Assembly (NCBI GenBank): GCA_017993775.1 | Contig: JAGOMA010000022.1 | Span: forward strand, 1 to 64,000 | From: Chloroflexota bacterium | Lineage (GTDB): Bacteria > Chloroflexota > Anaerolineae > Promineifilales > Promineifilaceae | DNA: 64,000 nucleotides | Direction of reading: 5' to 3' | Shown: piece after piece, positions 10,870 through 20,525 of the stretch | Position numbering within the stretch: position 1 is the stretch's first letter | Layout: each line of letters starts with the position of its first letter | Program-made: the position numbers and the translations under genes | Notes under the pieces: generated by a model | The model's database searches: none | Seen by the model: the letters and a program-made list of their open reading frames with translations, nothing else | Told to the model about the DNA's origin: nothing

Positions 10870-12111
10870 TCAGGTCCGATAATCTGCATTGATGGCTACG
10901 TAATCGTAGCTAAGGTCGCAGGTCCAGACCGTGTCGTGCGCGTCGCCGCGACCCAGGTCCAGCCGGATTTTGAATTCTGGTTGGTTAAAGATAGCTGCCG
11001 CCTTGCTTTCCTGGTAGTCGGTGGGCGTACCCTGGCGGACGAGCTGTAATTCGTCGGTTTGCTGCACGCCCACCCACAAATTGGTCTGGTACTGGTCGAA
11101 GGGCACGCCGGCGCGCCCGGCGGCGGCCAGAATGCGTCCCCAGTTGGCATCGCCGCCGGCGAAGGCGGTTTTGACCAGCGGCGAGGTGGCGATGGTGTTG
11201 GCGACGGTGTGGGCGTCGACGGCCGTTGCCGTGCCGCTCACCACAATCTCTACAAACCTGGTCGCCCCTTCGCCGTCCTTCACAATCATGCGCGCCAATT
11301 CGGCGCAGAGCATGGTCAGCGCCGCGCCAAACAGGACAGCGCTGTCGTGGTCTTCTATGGCCACGCCGCTGGCCCCGTTGGCCAGCAGCAGCACGGTGTC
11401 GTTGGTGCTGGTGTCGCCATCGACAGAGATGCGGTTGAAGGAGTGGGTGACGGCCGTTTTCAACATGCCGGCCAGCATATCCGGGGCAATTGCCGCATCG
11501 GTGGTGATGAGACTGAGCATGGTGGCCATGTTGGGATGAATCATGCCTGCGCCTTTGGCCATGCCGCCAATCGTGACCACGCCGCCGGGCAGGTCCACCT
11601 GCACCGCCAGATGTTTGGGGCGGGTGTCGGTGGTCATGATTGCCCGCGTGACAGCCAATCCGCCCGCGGCCGAATCCTCCGCGCTGCTCTGGCGAAGCGC
11701 CTGGCCGGCGGCGGTGATGCCGGCTTGCAGGCGGGCCATCGGCATTTGCACGCCGATGACGCCGGTGGACATCACCAGCACTTCGTCGGCGGCGCAGCCA
11801 ACCGCCGCAGCGACGACCGCCTGGGATTGGCGGGCGTTGTCCAGGCCGGGCTGGCCGGTGGAGGCGTTGGCGTTGCCGGAATTGATGAGCACGGCGCGGA
11901 TGTGGCTGTTGTTGGCCTTGAGCGTGGCGCGATCCACCACTACCGGCGCGGCGACGACCTGGTTTTTGGTGAAAACGGCCGTGGCGCTGCAATCCGCCTC
12001 GCTGACGATGAGGGCCAGATCGAGTCTGTCGGGATATTTGATTTGGGCGGCAACGGCCGTGGCCTGGAAGCCAGTTGGAGAAGTGACAGTACCGTTAACA
12101 AGATGTTGCAT
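10870..12111 (-). CDS. argJ: Bifunctional ornithine acetyltransferase/N-acetylglutamate synthase
   Basis: A 413-residue ArgJ of the Ntn fold. It moves the acetyl group from N-acetylornithine to glutamate, recycling it, and may also acetylate glutamate from acetyl-CoA. Self-cleavage makes two chains at the Thr of KGAGMIHPNMATML (about residue 190), which is intact; GDTSTNDTVLLLANG and the C-terminal CDLSYDYVAINADYRT are typical. AAAGGA stands 9-10 nt before the ATG. It follows the lipoprotein gene by 23 bp in the arginine run. With ArgJ present the GNAT domain on ArgG would only need to top up acetylglutamate. Confidence 0.96.
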   Translation of the reverse strand: MQHLVNGTVTSPTGFQATAVAAQIKYPDRLDLALIVSEADCSATAVFTKNQVVAAPVVVDRATLKANNSHIRAVLINSGNANASTGQPGLDNARQSQAVVAAAVGCAADEVLVMSTGVIGVQMPMARLQAGITAAGQALRQSSAEDSAAGGLAVTRAIMTTDTRPKHLAVQVDLPGGVVTIGGMAKGAGMIHPNMATMLSLITTDAAIAPDMLAGMLKTAVTHSFNRISVDGDTSTNDTVLLLANGASGVAIEDHDSAVLFGAALTMLCAELARMIVKDGEGATRFVEIVVSGTATAVDAHTVANTIATSPLVKTAFAGGDANWGRILAAAGRAGVPFDQYQTNLWVGVQQTDELQLVRQGTPTDYQESKAAAIFNQPEFKIRLDLGRGDAHDTVWTCDLSYDYVAINADYRT

Positions 12112-12134: not shown

Positions 12135-13469
12135 TTATGGGCAGAAATCAACGGCCGTCAGGCTGGGATTGCCATAACCCAGGTTTTCCAGAGGGCCGGT
12201 GGGGTTGTGAAACGTGGCCAGACCGGCCTCGACGGCCGTGCAAAGCTGCGGCGCATTGTCAGGCGTGGTCCAGCCGCTGATCAGTTGGGCTGCGCCAAAC
12301 GCGGCGGCTGTGCCGGGGTAGGTGTTGTTGAGCCAGTTTAGGCGGCTGGCAGCGCGAACTAAATCCCCTTTTTGCAGGTCAATGAGGATGAGCCGGAAGG
12401 CGGCGAACTGGTCGATGGCTGCTTTGGTTTGGGCGGCTGTTCCCAGGAAGTCAACTGTTTCTAGCGTGGGATTGTTAACAGCGTCTTCGTATAGGAACAG
12501 TGCGCCGTCGATGTCGCCGGCGGCCATTTTGTCGTTGGCTTCATAGAGGATGTGATGGCGGTAGGTGGTGGGATCGAGTAGGGTGTTGGCCAGGGTAACG
12601 GCCGTGCTATCCCAGCGCCACACTTCCGTATAGGCGCGCATCACGCCTGCGCCAGCCGAGCCGATTGTGCCGCCGTGGACGAGAAAGTCGAGACGGCCGT
12701 TGCCGTTTTCGTCCACCAACTGCGTTTCCGGAAACGTGATGGCGATCACGTCGCCGGGCGCACCCTCGTGCGGCTGCGGAGCGGCCACGATGTTGTCCAG
12801 TGGGCCGTGGGCTGCGCTGATGATTTTGAACGCGCCAGAGCAGGTATGGACGCCGCATTCTGTGATCATTGTGACAAGTTCTGGCCGCGCATCGCCGGTC
12901 ATATCGCCGCTGGCAGCGATGGTTGGGGCCAGTTGCAGCCCGCCAGTGGGCGAGACGCTTTCAGGGTAGGCGCGATATTGCAGTCCCGAGCCGTTGACAA
13001 TCCATAAATTGCCGGGAAATCCATAGGCGATTGCGGTTGGGTTTTGCGGATCGTGCAGGACCAATACCCATTCGTCACGCAGGTCGCCGTCAAAGTCTAA
13101 ACCGAGCCATTCTGCATCTTGCTGCTGCCAGCCGGCGGCTTGCAGGGCGGCGCGCACGGCGGCGGGGTTGGCGTTTTGCTGCCAGACGGCCGTTAACCAA
13201 CCCTCTAATTCTTCCCAGGTAGCCGGGGCGATGGTCTGGTCTACCGGCGCGGCTGGGGTGAGGGTGGCGCAGGTTGTGCCGCAGCCGCCGGGGCAGTCGC
13301 CGGGGCAAAAGTAGGTTTCGTTGGCGGCGCAGGCGGGCGGGGTACAAAGCGGGAAGGGGGTGTCGGTGGCGGGCGGTTGGGTGGGGGAAACGGCCGTGGG
13401 TGTGGCAGGCGGTTGGGTCTGGCAGGCGGCAATGGCCAGAAAGATCATGAGGATGGCGAACTGTTTCAT
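12135..13469 (-). CDS. Lipoprotein of unknown function
   Basis: A 444-residue protein with a clear lipoprotein signal (short hydrophobic stretch ending LAIAAC, lipidated Cys near residue 16), then a Pro/Thr-rich linker and a cysteine-rich patch (CPGDCPGGCGTTCATL). The main body contains repeat-like segments LGLDFDGDLRDEWVLVL, MTGDARPELVTM and ENGNGRLDFLVHGG. These resemble the D-G-D calcium loops of FG-GAP/VCBS propellers. It begins by an ATGA overlap with the death-like-domain gene upstream, so the two are co-translated. I do not recognise a specific family; an outer-face lectin or sensor role is speculation. Confidence 0.75.
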   Translation of the reverse strand: MKQFAILMIFLAIAACQTQPPATPTAVSPTQPPATDTPFPLCTPPACAANETYFCPGDCPGGCGTTCATLTPAAPVDQTIAPATWEELEGWLTAVWQQNANPAAVRAALQAAGWQQQDAEWLGLDFDGDLRDEWVLVLHDPQNPTAIAYGFPGNLWIVNGSGLQYRAYPESVSPTGGLQLAPTIAASGDMTGDARPELVTMITECGVHTCSGAFKIISAAHGPLDNIVAAPQPHEGAPGDVIAITFPETQLVDENGNGRLDFLVHGGTIGSAGAGVMRAYTEVWRWDSTAVTLANTLLDPTTYRHHILYEANDKMAAGDIDGALFLYEDAVNNPTLETVDFLGTAAQTKAAIDQFAAFRLILIDLQKGDLVRAASRLNWLNNTYPGTAAAFGAAQLISGWTTPDNAPQLCTAVEAGLATFHNPTGPLENLGYGNPSLTAVDFCP

Positions 13470-14647
13470 GCTGCGTTCTCCTGATTGAGGGGTCCAACGG
13501 CCGTAAATTCTTCAGGGTAGGTTGTTTCCAGTGCTGCCAAAAGCGGACCGAACTGCTTCTTGAACGTGCAGAATTCTAACAGCGCCTGCACTTTCTGCCG
13601 ATAAGACATCCCGGATCCGAATTCATAGACGGCTTCTGGCAGGTGCTGGCGGCAAAAAGCAGTCATTGCCTCGTCATCTGGGAAGACCTGGAAGATTAGG
13701 GCGCGGATGCGTTCGGTTTTGTAGGTTTCCTCGTCTTTTTTGTTGGCTAATAATTCCTGAAGCGCCAAATCTAAATTGGGCAACAAACTCCTTCTGTTCA
13801 AAGTGTTTATCAGCCCATTGACTTTATCCATATAGGTTGATCCGGAAATGTCCTCCAGGTCCAGATCGACTTGCCGGCAGATTAATTTTAATTCCGCGAG
13901 ATTTAAGGTGGCTAAAATCTGGCGGTAGTAATCAATGGTGTTTGCAGGTGTGTACTTTGCCTTTGATAGCGTGGCCTTGTAATGGGGTCTGTTTTGGGCA
14001 ATGTAGCCTGCCAGTTGGTCTCCTAGTCGACGTTTTTCCACGTAGTAAAGGAGAGAAACAATTTTTGCCGATTTGCCGTCCCCAGATAAATTTTCAAAAT
14101 CGATGCCTAAATCAAAAGCCAATGAGGCGAGTTCAGACAAGTTGAAGCCCTGGTGCAAAATATAGGACCAGTATTCCTCTTGGGGCGAATCTTGGGCATC
14201 CCATTTTGCAGACGATGACGATTTGTGTTTTTCCTTGGGTTGGTTGTAATTGTTGATTGCCAGCAGAATATCGGCCGTATGCCAATCTACTGCGGGCCAA
14301 CGGCTTGATAATGCCTCCAATAATTCTGGAATACGCCTTCGCCGCAGCATGTAGTAAACGAATTCCAGGCAAACGGTTTCATTCTTGGTGCCAGGAACAT
14401 CAGCGGGCGAAATGCCGAGATCGAGGATCAATTCTCTTAATTCGACGGGCTGAATCACTTCGGCCATCTGTGCCCATAACGCATTCATTTTTGCTTTTTG
14501 GATCCGATCAAGTTCCTGGAGTTGTATCCTTGTTTGGTAGGAAATGGGCTTTGTATATGTCATCTGAGGAACGGCCGTTTCCTTTTCCGGTTCTTTCACT
14601 TCTGGTTGTTGTGGCGGCTTGAGGGCGTCGATGAGTTTCTTAAACAT
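13466..14647 (-). CDS. Tandem death-like (effector-associated-type) domain protein
   Basis: A 393-residue cytosolic, entirely helical protein. I read four related modules. Module 1, about residues 62-118, contains LRELILDLGISPADVPG. Module 2, about 165-225, contains LASLAFDLGIDFENLSG. Module 3, about 240-300, contains LKLICRQVDLDLEDISG. Module 4, about 310-378, is divergent. The pattern of a helix, LGID-x-[ED]-[ND]-[LV]-x-G, then a basic helix (YYMLRRRR, YYVEKRR) matches death-like effector-associated domains of bacterial conflict and signalling systems, which recruit partners carrying like domains. No effector domain is attached. It looks less GC-rich than its neighbours and its central kilobase lacks ACGGCCGT, suggesting acquisition. 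Coupled to the downstream lipoprotein. Confidence 0.7.
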   Translation of the reverse strand: MFKKLIDALKPPQQPEVKEPEKETAVPQMTYTKPISYQTRIQLQELDRIQKAKMNALWAQMAEVIQPVELRELILDLGISPADVPGTKNETVCLEFVYYMLRRRRIPELLEALSSRWPAVDWHTADILLAINNYNQPKEKHKSSSSAKWDAQDSPQEEYWSYILHQGFNLSELASLAFDLGIDFENLSGDGKSAKIVSLLYYVEKRRLGDQLAGYIAQNRPHYKATLSKAKYTPANTIDYYRQILATLNLAELKLICRQVDLDLEDISGSTYMDKVNGLINTLNRRSLLPNLDLALQELLANKKDEETYKTERIRALIFQVFPDDEAMTAFCRQHLPEAVYEFGSGMSYRQKVQALLEFCTFKKQFGPLLAALETTYPEEFTAVGPLNQENAA

Positions 14648-14800: not shown

Positions 14801-16636
14801 CTAATCCCGCTTAAACTTGCTGTAATCCGGCGCAGAATAACGCGTCTTGCCGCCGTCGCTTACCTCCATCATCGCCTTGACCTTCATTTGCAGGCCAAAC
14901 AAGGTGATGAACCCGACCGCGTCCGATTGATCGTACACATCTTCCTTGCCGAAGGTGGCGAAATCTTCGCGGTACAGACTCATCGGGCTGGAACGGCCGA
15001 TGGTGATGACGTTGCCTTTGTACAATTTCACTTTCACCCAGCCGGTGACAGGCTCCTGCGTTTTATCAACGAAGACTTGCATCGCTTCGCGCAGCGAGGT
15101 GTACCATTTGCCATAGTAGACCAGCTCCGCATACCGCACGGCAACCTGTTCTTTGAAGTGCAGCGTGTCACGGTCCAGGCAGAGCGATTCCAAAGCCTGA
15201 TGCGCTTTGTACAGGATGGTGCCGCCGGGGGTTTCATAAACGCCGTGGGATTTCATGCCCACCAGCCGATTTTCCACCAGGTCCACCCGGCCCACGCCGT
15301 GTTTCGCGCCCAATTCGTTCAGCTTTTCGATGACGGCCGCCGGGGGGAGCTGCACATCGTTGACGGCTACCGGCAGCCCCTGCTCAAAGTCGATTTTCAC
15401 CACTTCCGCCTCATTGGGCGCGTCTTCCGGATCAACGGTGAACAGGAACATAGCCTTTTCCGGTTCCAACGAGGGGTCTTCCAAAATGCCGCCCTCGTGG
15501 GAGATGTGCCACAGGTTGGCGTCGCGGCTGTAAATGGATTTTTCTGTGTGGACGACGGGTACGTTGTGCTTTTTGGCGTATGCCAGGGCATCCTCGCGGG
15601 AGCGAATCTCCCATTCGCGCCAGGGAGCAATCACTTTGAGGGTGGGGTTGAGCGCCTTGAAGGTCAGTTCGAAGCGCACCTGATCGTTGCCTTTGCCGGT
15701 TGCGCCATGGGCTACGGCGTCCGCGCCTTCCGCTTCGGCGATGGCGACTTGCCATTTGGCGATGAGCGGGCGGGCGACCGACGTGCCCAGCAGGTATTCT
15801 TTCTCGTAAATCGCGCCGGATTGCAGCATGGGGAAAAGGAAGTCTTTGGCAAATTCGTGGCGTAAATCTTCGATGTAGACTTTGCTGGCGCCGCTGGCCA
15901 ACGCTTTCTCGCGCAGCCCTTTCAATTCAAAGTCTCCCTGGCCGATGTCGGCGCAGAAGCAGATGACTTCGCAGCCGTAATTTTCTTTGAGCCAGGGAAC
16001 AATGACGGATGTGTCCAGTCCGCCGGAATAGGCGAGGACAACCTTGTTAACTTTGGACTTGGATTTGGATGACATGGGTAATACTCCTTTTTGTGTATTT
16101 TGGGTCTCATCTTCGAATATGGCGTGAACAGACGCACCGCCTGTCACGGGGATAAACAGACTGGGTTGGATTTCGGCCGGACCGAGTTCCAGAACGACGG
16201 CCGTTTCGTCGCAGGCTTCTAGCAGGGGGCAGATGGAACAATCGCGGAACACTTTTTGCGGAAAGCGCTCTTTGACGGTGATTTTAAAGCCCACCTTTTG
16301 GAAAAAATCGACGGCGCGAGTCAGGGCAAATAGGGTGGGCACGTTGCGATGGCGCGCTTCGTTGATGGCTTCTTTCACAATCGTGCGGCCCCAGCCTTGC
16401 CCTTTCACGCGGTCGCTGACGGCCAGCGAGCGCACTTCGGCCAGATAGGGCGTGTAATAAAACAGCGAAACACAGGCGACGATGTCGCCATCAGGATAAA
16501 CGCCGACGAGCCAATCGTGCAGGGTGTCGCGGATGGAGAGGGCGCTGCGCGGCAGCAAATCACCGCGCCGGGCATGGTCGCTGACCAGGCGTAAAATGGC
16601 GGGTATGTCGGTTTCACGGGCAGGACGAATGTTCAT
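14801..16636 (-). CDS. argG: GNAT N-acetyltransferase (ArgA-like) fused in frame to argininosuccinate synthase
   Basis: One open frame of 611 codons. Residues 1-150 are a GNAT acetyltransferase (acetyl-CoA loop [15 protein letters not shown], then FFQKVGFK) of the type found as acetylglutamate synthase domains. Residues 188-611 are a complete argininosuccinate synthase, with ATP pyrophosphatase loop [28 protein letters not shown] and [16 protein letters not shown]. ArgG joins citrulline and aspartate using ATP. The ArgG start Met (16075) has its own AAGGAG at 8 nt, so the cell may make both a 611-residue fusion and a free 424-residue ArgG. Situated between argD and the death-like-domain gene. 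The ArgG identity is certain; the fusion needs protein evidence. Confidence 0.9.
16084..16089 (-). promoter_or_regulatory. Internal ribosome binding site for free ArgG
   Basis: AAGGAG 8 nt before the ATG at 16075, inside the longer GNAT-ArgG frame. Its presence favours separate initiation at the ArgG moiety (product 14801-16075, 424 residues). Confidence 0.6.
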
Positions 16637-16644
16637 AGGTAGGA

Positions 16645-16708
16645 TGGAGCTAGAGTTAGAGCTAGAGGGGCCGTGGTTTTCTTCCGGCTCTCGCTTTCGC
16701 TCTAGCTG
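16645..16708. repeat. GAGCTAGAGTTA-type short tandem repeats
   Basis: Hexamer-like AGAGCTAG/AGAGTTAG units followed by their complement CTCTCGCTTTCGCTCTAG fill the gap between argD and the GNAT-argG gene and run into the last codons of argD. Same character as 37047-37080. Confidence 0.55.
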
Positions 16709-17901
16709 GTTAAGCAGGTCTCCAGGATGTTTACGGCTTCGTCGATGTGGGCGCGGGTGACGATGAGCGGCGGGGCGAGGCGCAGGACGGTTTCGCCGGC
16801 GTTGATGACCATGAGGCCGTGGCTGCGGGCGGCGGCGATGAGGGGGGCAACGGCCGTTTTCATCTCCACGCCCACCAGTAAGCCCGCCCCGCGCACCGTC
16901 ACAATCTCGTCCGATTCCAGGGTTTCTAGCCGGTGGCGCAGGTAGGCGGCGTTCTCCTGGACTTGCTGCAAGAACCCGGGCTGGCTAACGCGGTCGAAAA
17001 CCACGTTGGCGGCCGTGCAGACCAGCGGCCCGGCGGCAAAGGTGCTGCCGTGGTCGCCGGGCTGAATGACGTCGGCCACCTTTTGCGTCACCAGGGCTGC
17101 GCCAATGGGCAGGCCGCCGGCCAGCGGCTTGGCCAGGGTCATGATGTCGGGCGACACGCCATACGTTTCATAGGCCCACAGGTGGCCGGTGCGCCCCAGG
17201 CCGCACTGCACCTCGTCGAAGATAAGCAGCGCGTCGTGGGCGTCGCACAAATCACGCAGCCCTTGCAAAAATTCGGGTGATGCCGGGTTGACACCGCCTT
17301 CGCCCTGGATGGGTTCGACGATGACGGCGCAGGTGTCGCCGGTGATGGCGTTCCGGGCGGCGGCCAAATCGTTGAAGGGCGCGAAGGTGACGCCGGGAAC
17401 CAGCGGCGCGAACGGTTCGCGGTACTGTGCTTTGTAGGTGACGGACAACGCGCCCATGGTACGGCCGTGAAACCCGCCGCTGAAGGCCACGATTTCGGAT
17501 TTTGAATGGGCGGTTTCGGAACCGGAAGTTTTGGCGTATTTGCGGGCGAATTTTAGGGCGGCTTCGTTGGCTTCTGCGCCGGAATTGCAGAAGTAGACTT
17601 TGTCGGCGAAGGAATGGGTGACGAGTTTTTGGGCCAGTTGGGCCTGGGGGGCGGTGTGGTAAAGGTTGCTGACGTGGACGAGTTGGGCGGCTTGTTGGGC
17701 AACGGCCGTTACCCATTCCTTATCGCTGTGCCCCAGCGCCGCCACGGCGATGCCCGACATGAAATCGAGGTATTGTTTGCCGTCGGTGTCGTACAAATAC
17801 ATGCCGTCGCCGTGGGTAAACACCACGTCCGGCCGGTTGTAGGTGTGCAGCACGTAATCGGCGTCTGTTTGAATGATGGTTTGGGAATCAATTGGGTTCA
17901 T
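16702..17901 (-). CDS. argD: Acetylornithine aminotransferase
   Basis: A 399-residue class III PLP aminotransferase converting N-acetylglutamate semialdehyde to N-acetylornithine, with glutamate as amino donor. [23 protein letters not shown] at the start, [17 protein letters not shown] (phosphate site), [12 protein letters not shown] (Asp for the ring nitrogen) and the Schiff-base Lys in [13 protein letters not shown] (about residue 253) are intact. The ATG has AGGA about 7 nt upstream. Gap to the upstream GNAT gene is 61 bp. This family often also serves as succinyldiaminopimelate aminotransferase in lysine synthesis. Confidence 0.95.
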
Positions 17902-18478: not shown

Positions 18479-19231
18479 CTATTTTGTGAACACCGTCCCG
18501 CCGCCTTGCAGCAGGCCGGTCAGGTTGACAATGCGTGCCTGGGGCACGCCCTGGGCTACGGCCGTTAACGCGCCGCGCACTTTGGGGACCATGCCGCCGT
18601 TGATGGTGCCCTGGGTGATGAGTTGTTCGGTCTGCACGGCCGTTAACCGTGGCAGCACACGCCCATCTTGCAGCACACCTGGCACGTTGGAAATGAAATC
18701 CAGTTGGTCGGCTTGCAGGGCCAGGGCAACAGCACTGGCGGCGTCGTCGGCGTTGACGTTGTAAGTGCGGCCGTCGTAGCCCAGCGAGATAGGGGAGAGA
18801 ACGGCCGTGATGCCCAACCCGGCCAATTGGCGCAGCAATTCAGTCCGTACCGCCACAACCTCGCCCACCAGGCCTAAATCAACTGTCGGGTGCGCTTTCT
18901 TTTCGCAGCGCAGCAGGCCGCCGTCTACGCCGCTCAGACCCACGGCATCCACGCCGGCCGTGAGCAGTGTGGTTACAATTTGTTTGTTTGTGTGGCCAGA
19001 CAGCACCATCTGGGCTACGGTCAGTGAATCGGCGTCGGTGATGCGCAGGCCGTCTACCTTTTTAGGCTCCAATCCCAGCCGTGTCTGCATCATGGCGATG
19101 TCGTGACCGCCGCCATGCACAATGACAAACTGCTCGTGAAGGTGTACGGCCGTTTGGCTAATCCACTGCGCCAACAAGGGCAAAAACCCTGGATCATCTA
19201 GTTCGTTACCGCCAATTTTTATGACACGCAT
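18479..19231 (-). CDS. argB: Acetylglutamate kinase
   Basis: A 250-residue amino-acid kinase that phosphorylates N-acetylglutamate. Nucleotide and substrate loops are visible: VIKIGGNELDD at the start, VIVHGGGHDIA, VDGLRITDADSL, NVNADDAASAVA and the C-terminal GGMVPKVRGALTAV. The open frame runs upstream to 19309, but that extension reads through an intergenic repeat; the ATG at 19231 with GGGAGG just upstream puts the first beta-strand at residue 2, as expected. It therefore lacks the N-terminal helix of arginine-inhibited hexameric kinases, so feedback by arginine at this enzyme is less likely. Confidence 0.95.
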   Translation of the reverse strand: MRVIKIGGNELDDPGFLPLLAQWISQTAVHLHEQFVIVHGGGHDIAMMQTRLGLEPKKVDGLRITDADSLTVAQMVLSGHTNKQIVTTLLTAGVDAVGLSGVDGGLLRCEKKAHPTVDLGLVGEVVAVRTELLRQLAGLGITAVLSPISLGYDGRTYNVNADDAASAVALALQADQLDFISNVPGVLQDGRVLPRLTAVQTEQLITQGTINGGMVPKVRGALTAVAQGVPQARIVNLTGLLQGGGTVFTK

Positions 19232-19241
19232 CGTCCCTCCG

Positions 19242-19305
19242 GGAAAGTGCGGAGTGTGGAACGCGGAGTGCGGAATTTCACCACTCCGCGCTCCGCACTC
19301 GGCAC
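19242..19305. repeat. Inverted repeat of GTGCGGAGTG units
   Basis: Copies of GTGCGGAGTG/GCGGAGTGCGG are followed by ACTCCGCGCTCCGCACTC, able to form a strong stem in the argC-argB gap. The upstream part is translated only if argB used a far-upstream start. Confidence 0.65.
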
Positions 19306-20313
19306 TCAAATAAGTCCAGCCGTTTCTTCCAGGCCAAACATGACGTTCATATTCTGCACCGCCTGCCCCGACGCGCCTTTGATCAGATTGTCGGTGGCCG
19401 AGGTGAGGATGAGCATGGTTCCGGCCAGGGTCAGCGAGATAGCGCAGCGGTTGGTGTAGGTGACGTGGGCCAGGCTGGCTAATTCGCCTTTAGGCAGCAT
19501 CCGCACAAACGGCTCGCCCTGGTAGGTGTCCTGGTAAAGTTGGCGCAAATCTGCCTCGCTCCAGGCATCGGCTAGCTGCACGTACAGGTTGGCCAAAATG
19601 CCGCGTGGCACGGGCAGCAGGTGGGGCGAGAAGATGAGATTGGGCGCGGCCGGGTTCCATTCTTTGATGATGGCTTCCATTTCTGGCAGATGGCGGTGCG
19701 ACCGGCCGATTTTGTAAGGCGAAAAATTATCGGTCACAGCCATGAAATGGGTGTTGGCGGCCGGATTGCGCCCTGCGCCGGATACGCCCGACTTGGCGTC
19801 GATGATGATGTCTCCGGCCACTTTAACCCCGGCGGCCATGATCGGCTGTAAGGCCAGCAGGCTGGTGGTGGTGTAGCAGCCGGGATTGGCGACCAGCCGG
19901 GTTTGTTTCAGTGGTTCGCGGGCAAATTCGGTCAGGCCGTAGACGGCTTCAGGCAGCAGGTCGGGCGCAGGGTGGGTGACGCCGTACCATTTTTCGTAGA
20001 CAGCCACGTCTTTCAGGCGGAAATCGGCGCTGAGGTCGATGACTTTGCAGCCGGCGTTGAGGGCGGACACGGCCGTTGCCGCCGCCGCAGCATGTGGCAG
20101 GCACAAAAAAACCACATCCACCTGGTTTAGCGGCGCTTCCTCTCCGTCAATCAGCGGGAGGTGTGGCGCTTGCGGGTAAATCGCGTCCAAGGTTTGTCCG
20201 GCGTAAGACTGCGAGGTCGCAAACGCCACCTCAACACTCGGATGTCTATCCAATATTTGAACCAGCTCATAACCGGTGTAGCCGGTTGCGCCGAAAATGC
20301 CTGCTCGAATCAT
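19306..20313 (-). CDS. argC: N-acetyl-gamma-glutamyl-phosphate reductase
   Basis: A 335-residue NADPH-dependent reductase making N-acetylglutamate semialdehyde. Rossmann loop IFGATGYTGYELV at the N-terminus, catalytic Cys in VANPGCYTTTSLLALQP, and GVSGAGRNP plus FSPHLLPVPRGIL all match ArgC. Another in-frame ATG lies 12 nt upstream (20325); 20313 is chosen because GGAGATT stands 5-11 nt before it and the Rossmann strand begins immediately. It is the first structural gene after the attenuator region, so it heads the arginine operon. Confidence 0.95.
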   Translation of the reverse strand: MIRAGIFGATGYTGYELVQILDRHPSVEVAFATSQSYAGQTLDAIYPQAPHLPLIDGEEAPLNQVDVVFLCLPHAAAAATAVSALNAGCKVIDLSADFRLKDVAVYEKWYGVTHPAPDLLPEAVYGLTEFAREPLKQTRLVANPGCYTTTSLLALQPIMAAGVKVAGDIIIDAKSGVSGAGRNPAANTHFMAVTDNFSPYKIGRSHRHLPEMEAIIKEWNPAAPNLIFSPHLLPVPRGILANLYVQLADAWSEADLRQLYQDTYQGEPFVRMLPKGELASLAHVTYTNRCAISLTLAGTMLILTSATDNLIKGASGQAVQNMNVMFGLEETAGLI

Positions 20314-20346
20314 ACCAATCTCCACTACTGTGCTTTAATCTAGGGC

Positions 20347-20385
20347 AAAAAAAAACCGCCAGACCTTGTTGTGGCCTGGCGGTTT
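20347..20385 (-). terminator. Intrinsic terminator of the arginine leader (attenuator)
   Basis: On the minus strand CCGCCAGGCC (20373-20382) pairs with GGTCTGGCGG (20356-20365) around a 7-nt loop. The stem can be extended by three A-T pairs and is followed by nine T residues (20347-20355). It lies only about 35 nt before argC, with the leader peptide upstream. It could also serve as the ordinary terminator of the gene upstream at 20597-22543. Confidence 0.85.
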
Positions 20386-20444
20386 GGGTTTCTAATCTGT
20401 CTTGCGTGACTTACCCAACCGAAAAATCCAGACCTGGGGTCCGG
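20356..20444 (-). promoter_or_regulatory. Mutually exclusive hairpin segments of an arginine attenuator
   Basis: In transcript order: segment 1 CCGGACC (20438-20444), segment 2 GGTCTGG (20428-20434), segment 3 CCAGGCC (20373-20379), segment 4 GGTCTGG (20359-20365). 1 pairs with 2, 2 with 3, and 3 with 4, each over 7 bases (one G-U allowed). Segments 2 and 4 are identical. Segment 1 overlaps the last Arg codon of the leader peptide. Confidence 0.75.
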
Positions 20445-20488
20445 CTGCTACGGCGGCGGCGGGGAAAAAATGTCACATCATTTAACAT
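20411..20488 (-). CDS. Arginine-rich leader peptide of the arg operon
   Basis: A 25-codon ORF too short for routine gene calling: ATG at 20488, TAA at 20411-20413. The product contains FFPRRRRSSRTPG, five arginines in seven residues, with the run encoded by CGC CGC CGC CGT AGC AGC CGG. It lies between a promoter and a terminator just before argC. When charged tRNA-Arg is scarce, a ribosome stalled on the run would mask hairpin segment 1 and allow the antiterminator to form. There is no clear Shine-Dalgarno; the predicted transcription start is only a few bases before the ATG, so translation may be leaderless. Confidence 0.75.
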   Translation of the reverse strand: MLNDVTFFPRRRRSSRTPGLDFSVG

Positions 20489-20497
20489 CGTGCCAAA

Positions 20498-20525
20498 ATA
20501 GTAACAAATAATCAGATCGTGTCAA
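20498..20525 (-). promoter_or_regulatory. Promoter of the arginine operon
   Basis: Perfect TTGACA (20520-20525) and TACTAT (20498-20503) with a 16-nt spacer, reading toward the leader peptide whose ATG begins 9 nt after the -10 box. Confidence 0.65.

Follow-up and report, generated by a model that had tools for sequence, protein, structure and literature searches.

The arginine biosynthesis operon of this Chloroflexota bacterium is very probably controlled by a ribosome-mediated transcription attenuator that lies before argC and senses charged Arg-tRNA, as judged from the sequence and its relatives. The window, by which we mean the whole stretch of 64,000 nt that was analysed, carries the leader at positions 20347 to 20525, and all features described below lie on its minus strand. 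We observed the parts of an attenuator, their conservation, covariation of the pairings, selection on in-frame arginine codons and a match between the codon run and the downstream gene. The mechanism of attenuation is the classical one, as in the trp, his and ilv attenuators.

The leader begins with a sigma-70-type promoter, TTGACA-16-TACTAT (20498-20525), which has 10 of 12 consensus matches and a TG before the -10 box; its -35 box TTGACA (20525-20520) and -10 box TACTAT (20503-20498) are separated by a 16-nt spacer. It is followed by a leader ORF of 25 codons, MLNDVTFFPRRRRSSRTPGLDFSVG (20411-20488), that runs from the ATG at 20488 to the TAA at 20411 and has arginine at codons 10-13 and 16. 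The control codons are Arg10-Arg13 (20450-20461), and Arg13 (20452-20450) is the counterpart of a position that is arginine in 39 of 39 relatives. Segment 1, CCGGACC (20438-20444), pairs with segment 2, GGTCTGG (20428-20434). Segment 2 also supplies the first half of the antiterminator 5' side; the second half is CGGTTGGGT (20413-20421), predicted to be covered by a ribosome at the stop codon. Segment 3 (core CCAGGCC, 20379-20373; in full AACCGCCAGGCC, 20373-20384) is common to the antiterminator and the terminator. Together with segment 4, GGTCTGG (20365-20359), it forms an intrinsic terminator stem-loop of 13 bp with a 7-nt loop (20353-20385, -22.9 kcal/mol), and the U-tract has nine T (20347-20355).

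A first-pass annotation of this DNA had proposed the promoter, the arginine-rich ORF and the terminator with its nine Ts, and all three are present where it had placed them. The four segments and their mutually exclusive pairings were likewise found at their positions, but the antiterminator extends beyond the 7 bp that had been described. Before segment 4 is made, segment 2 and CGGTTGGGT pair with ACCCAAACCGCCAGGCC, enclosing a small hairpin (GTC..GAC), with an energy of -22.2 kcal/mol, close to that of the terminator; the protector hairpin 1:2 has -10.6 kcal/mol. From these energies and the two-part pairing we therefore conclude that the antiterminator is bipartite and equal in strength to the terminator. 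Folding of the leader RNA, also proposed earlier as a check, gave a structure that beats 200 of 200 dinucleotide shuffles (z -3.5). Because the fold beats all shuffles and the whole arrangement is kept in relatives, the arrangement is above chance. The earlier annotation missed the probable leaderless start and the membership of this switch in a wider set, both described below.

Downstream of the leader, the gene order is argC, argB, a GNAT protein, argD, a GNAT-ArgG fusion, two ORFs and argJ. The first structural gene, argC (19306-20325; TIGR01850, 385 bits), probably starts at the ATG at 20313, as suggested by the sequence, which has GGAG just upstream, and by relatives. The genes argB (18479-19309; TIGR00761), argD (16702-17901; TIGR00707) and argJ (10870-12111; TIGR00120) were assigned by their profiles. 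Between argD and argJ, one frame of 611 aa (14801-16636) fuses a GNAT acetyltransferase domain (NAGS-like, about residues 1-153) to argininosuccinate synthase (ArgG). The two ORFs between argG and argJ (12135-14647) are unexpected inside an arginine operon and neither is assigned by NCBIfam; one has four matches to the effector-associated domain EAD7 (PF19960), and the other has no Pfam or NCBIfam match.

We infer that the leader is translated, that ribosomes stall on it and that the operon responds in the following way. RNA polymerase would start 0-4 nt ahead of the leader ATG, and a ribosome would load at or near the 5' end of the transcript. When arginyl-tRNA is scarce, the ribosome would stall on Arg10-13 and cover segment 1, so that segment 2 and the following CGGTT would pair with segment 3, the terminator would be blocked and argCB-D-G-J would be transcribed. 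When arginine is plentiful, the ribosome would proceed to the stop and cover segment 2 and CGGTT, upon which 3:4 would form and transcription would end at the U-tract. If the leader is not translated at all, 1:2 and 3:4 would both form and transcription would end as well.

The geometry of the leader is compatible with these steps, taking the generally known size of the ribosome footprint. The leader stop (20413-20411) lies about 15 nt past segment 2 and overlaps CGGTTGGGT; a ribosome positioned there would cover CGGTTGGGT together with part of segment 2, and a ribosome with Arg10-13 in its A site would hide segment 1 and leave segment 2 free. The proposal that stalling on arginine codons frees segment 2, made in the first-pass annotation, fits a stall at Arg10-13 but not one at Arg16, which would extend into segment 2; masking of segment 1 would need the stall at Arg10-13.

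To follow the leader through relatives, ArgC was traced in 148 relatives, mostly draft MAGs, and the upstream DNA was read at about 90 loci of the class. The same architecture was found in nearly all members of the family and order with upstream sequence and in most members of the class; the leader ORF, the Arg run and the pairings 1:2, 2:3 and 3:4 are kept across the class, with covariation. A lack of conservation of the ORF or the segments in relatives, which the first-pass annotation had named as a refutation, was thus not what we saw. We took 41 leaders from the home family and its sister family of the order. Among these, the leader stop lies 20-52 nt ahead of the terminator. A -35 box TTGAC with a matching -10 box is present in 38, of which 37 have the 16-nt spacer, and the leader ATG lies 6-10 nt past the -10 box in 37 of the 38 leaders with a recognisable box. 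No Shine-Dalgarno sequence was found in any of the 41 leaders. As far as can be told from promoter spacing only, the leader ORF in the home family is probably translated from a leaderless or near-leaderless transcript.

Arginine triplets make up 18.7% of the codons in the leader frame of the 41 leaders, compared to 7.9% and 5.2% in the shifted frames. When the leaders are aligned on segment 2, codon -6 is arginine in 39 of 39 (CGT 18, CGC 20, CGA 1). Since the residue is invariant and the codon changes synonymously, selection is for the amino acid itself, kept at a constant distance from segment 2 as stalling of a ribosome requires. In several families, AGG codons replace CGN, for example in PRSPRR. 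Outside the home family, a frame-independent test for arginine enrichment against dinucleotide shuffles was uninformative, because DNA rich in arginine codons (CG, AGG) stays so when shuffled and because frames with a stop before segment 2 were dropped; it was replaced by the frame-bias, codon-column and residue-run tests.

Three observations on individual leaders can be added. At five loci of distant families, and at similar ones, CCTAGGAGCCCTAGGAGG (PRSPRR) contains AGG codons that double as a strong internal Shine-Dalgarno-like sequence, a stretch that might add to ribosome pausing. In one relative (G023, a genome in three contigs), an in-frame TAG lies ahead of the Arg codons while the RNA structures are intact, which could reflect decay, a sequence error or reinitiation. 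Lastly, the own genome has a further, near-identical argC leader at the extreme end of a different contig (C92, 25268-25403), and alaS is also found twice (C15 and C21), probably as a result of strain mixture or assembly redundancy.

The alternative pairings are also kept by compensating changes. In an alignment of 37 sequences from the home family and order, 98.4% of the cells of terminator 3:4 are paired, and 9 of its 12 pairs show changes on both sides. For helix 2:3, 99.2% are paired, and the outer pair shows a coordinated change from GC to AU in six sequences from more than one genus; furthermore, the GGTT of CGGTTGGGT stays paired with AACC in 83% of the cells in the family. The case for helix 1:2, with 95.4% of the cells paired in the family and few two-sided changes, is one of conservation more than covariation, as these changes are too few to serve as proof by covariation alone. 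As relatives share changes, the covariation of 2:3 within the home family is only partly independent. Relatedness inflates such counts, and the stronger test therefore used one locus per genus. In 31 genera outside the two nearest families, where segment boundaries come from duplex prediction, the own 2:3 pairing has a mean of -17.15 kcal/mol compared to -14.10 (sd 0.45) for swapped arms, and no permutation out of 20,000 equalled the own pairing. The sequences involved differ widely (GGUCUGG, GGGCCCGG, GUGUGUGCCGGG, GAGGUCAG, GGUUCAGAGGG), and each fits its own terminator.

We compared the class to other genomes with a fixed detector, defined by an intrinsic terminator within about 620 nt, a short ORF that ends 10-60 nt before it and a residue that occurs three times within a few codons. 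An Arg run was called at 66 of the 88 argC loci of the class and the next best residue at 13, in counts that include related and hence non-independent genomes. The remaining 22 loci gave no call; at several of them the upstream sequence is short, Arg codons are few or a terminator is lacking. In other parts of the phylum there were three calls at 40 loci, of which two belong to a single family (f68), whose leaders read LRLRRPRT, and the third is weak. Outside Chloroflexota, two of 46 argC loci were called. Both calls look like chance; one of the ORFs ends in RRRKQFSKR and presumably resembles the C-terminus of a ribosomal protein. The contrast between the class and the genomes outside it is large despite the non-independent genomes.

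A covariance model of the argC leader, searched in relatives and in the own genome, gave strong further matches, for which the downstream genes were read and confirmed at representative loci. In the home family, and only there, the same scaffold lies before alaS (twelve loci; in the own genome on contigs C15 and C21), where it carries alanine runs such as MKRLNQHPTTISAAAAASQTSGLDCCAA and codon -6 is alanine in 11 of 11 placeable leaders. The Ala run has decayed in two genomes in which other DNA parts the leader from alaS. An Arg leader of this scaffold also precedes a gene that reads as ArgD in genome G012 (by eye, not by profile), and genome G074 has an Arg-run leader before argG. An exact-pattern scan (GTCTGG..CGCCAG..TGGCGGTTTTTT) matched only 12 sites in 10 of the 40 genomes scanned, most of them leaders of argC or alaS, and contributed little.

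Leaders for other amino acids were detected as well. The gene lysX of the LysW lysine pathway is preceded by a Lys leader, and most home-family genomes examined, including the own genome, have two in tandem (twelve loci, among them positions 173000-175300 of own contig C18). These are KKxKK ORFs, each with its own terminator, an arrangement that reads as a double attenuator. At eight loci, ilvB is preceded by a leader rich in Ile/Leu/Val and a terminator (MKRTLSFVLISLISLVLIIVVEDPMPVG in the own genome, contig C54 near 1070-1210), and proS in genome G063 (contig C7, 480-660) has a Pro-rich leader and a terminator upstream, with the motif CAGACC/GGTCTGG. We found no Trp-run leader in the upstream regions of trpE, so codon-run leaders do not serve all amino acids.

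In each case, the run fits the downstream gene. No other finding speaks as strongly for ribosome-mediated attenuation, or as strongly against an effect of nascent-chain charge, a riboswitch or a simple terminator. Polybasic and polyproline stretches slow ribosomes, and runs such as FPRRPRPPR in genus g3 would be candidates for such an effect. Thus, the leader could be translated and stall through its polybasic (RRRR) or proline-rich nascent chain, or act as a general sensor of translation stress or antibiotics, instead of responding to scarce Arg-tRNA. We consider this highly unlikely: the identical scaffold at alaS has neutral alanine in the same register, lysX has lysine and ilvB has Ile/Leu/Val, so that the common rule is the match to the downstream gene and not charge. 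Moreover, the Arg codons change synonymously.

In other organisms, arginine genes are mostly controlled by ArgR or T-boxes. T-box regulation of arginine genes is named for other species (PMC1262725), and the terminator could be used by ArgR, by another DNA- or RNA-binding factor or by a T-box or riboswitch, with the Arg-rich ORF being incidental. There is very little room for this explanation. The ArgR DNA-binding domain PF01316 was absent from the own genome and from 148 of 148 relatives, whereas the positive-control genomes matched. An Rfam search of the leader in the window gave sub-threshold chance matches only, without a T-box match, and 20 loci had no match at gathering level. Furthermore, there is in-frame selection for arginine, and the run differs according to the gene that follows. 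A third alternative, a constitutive terminator behind a short, unrelated transcript in which GC-rich palindromes (CCGCCGCCG) yield the Arg run as a by-product, has next to no chance of being right. CGCCGC repeats are common in GC-rich DNA, but the frame bias, the arginine at codon -6 in 39 of 39, the AGG codons used instead in several families and the covarying, mutually exclusive pairings contradict it. The earlier reading of the leader as a ribosome-mediated attenuator before an arginine operon is thus supported by covariation, in-frame Arg selection, the codon swap and the absence of ArgR.

The argC leader shares with the classical attenuators of Proteobacteria (trp, his, leu, ilv, thr, phe) a run of the regulated residue in the leader peptide, the 1:2, 2:3 and 3:4 alternatives, an intrinsic terminator before the first biosynthetic gene and a stop placed such that a terminating ribosome blocks the antiterminator. 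It differs in its arginine specificity and its Chloroflexota host, and leaders of the home family and order lack a Shine-Dalgarno sequence and are near-leaderless, with the ATG 6-10 nt past the -10 box. The same mechanism is found outside Proteobacteria in leader-peptide attenuators of Actinobacteria (PMC1262725; ilvB1 of Mycobacterium tuberculosis, PMC13236596); for the arginine operons of Actinobacteria, neither conserved upstream RNA structures nor an arginine attenuator was reported (PMC1262725). Short poly-Cys ORFs of mycobacteria also start leaderless but, unlike the argC leader, are described as translation attenuators, according to the citation of Canestrari 2020 in PMC13236596. The leader orf34 of Salmonella speF also senses arginine by consecutive Arg codons and alters mRNA folding, but its target is ornithine decarboxylase, it acts via Rho, RNase G and translation, and it lacks an intrinsic terminator attenuator and is unrelated in sequence (PMC6386406). 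For carA of Pseudomonas aeruginosa, a leader peptide before an arginine/pyrimidine gene and attenuation have been proposed, in work as cited in PMC4997734; there, attenuation is assigned to pyrimidine control and arginine acts at the transcriptional level, and gene and phylum differ. Arginine T-boxes of Firmicutes also sense tRNA-Arg charging to control a terminator, but they bind tRNA directly and have no leader ORF. In the literature searched, which gives partial coverage, we found no paper on leader-peptide attenuation of arginine biosynthesis by arginine and none on leader peptides in Chloroflexota. The arginine specificity, the phylum and the retargetable scaffold therefore appear to be undescribed in that literature. 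What is new about the argC leader is probably its specificity and phylum and, in the home family, also the leaderless start indicated by promoter spacing.

We consider it likely that in Chloroflexota of the class Anaerolineae codon-run attenuators, and not repressors, govern much of the amino-acid supply. One RNA scaffold would have been retargeted in nature by a swap of the control codons only, with the register fixed (Arg for argC and argD, Ala for alaS), beside separate leaders for Lys (two in tandem, lysX), Ile/Leu/Val (ilvB) and Pro (proS), and leaders of the home family would be read from leaderless transcripts. A survey from 2010, which knew leader peptide systems in Proteobacteria and Actinobacteria and added Firmicutes (PMC2965389), covers these three phyla only; leader-peptide attenuation is here extended to Chloroflexota. 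The swap from Arg to Ala codons within one scaffold is a natural experiment in which the signal is set by the codon run, and such a swappable scaffold is a ready-made modular design for amino-acid sensors. For the organisms themselves, the attenuator offers a possible answer to how a whole bacterial class without ArgR could control arginine synthesis.
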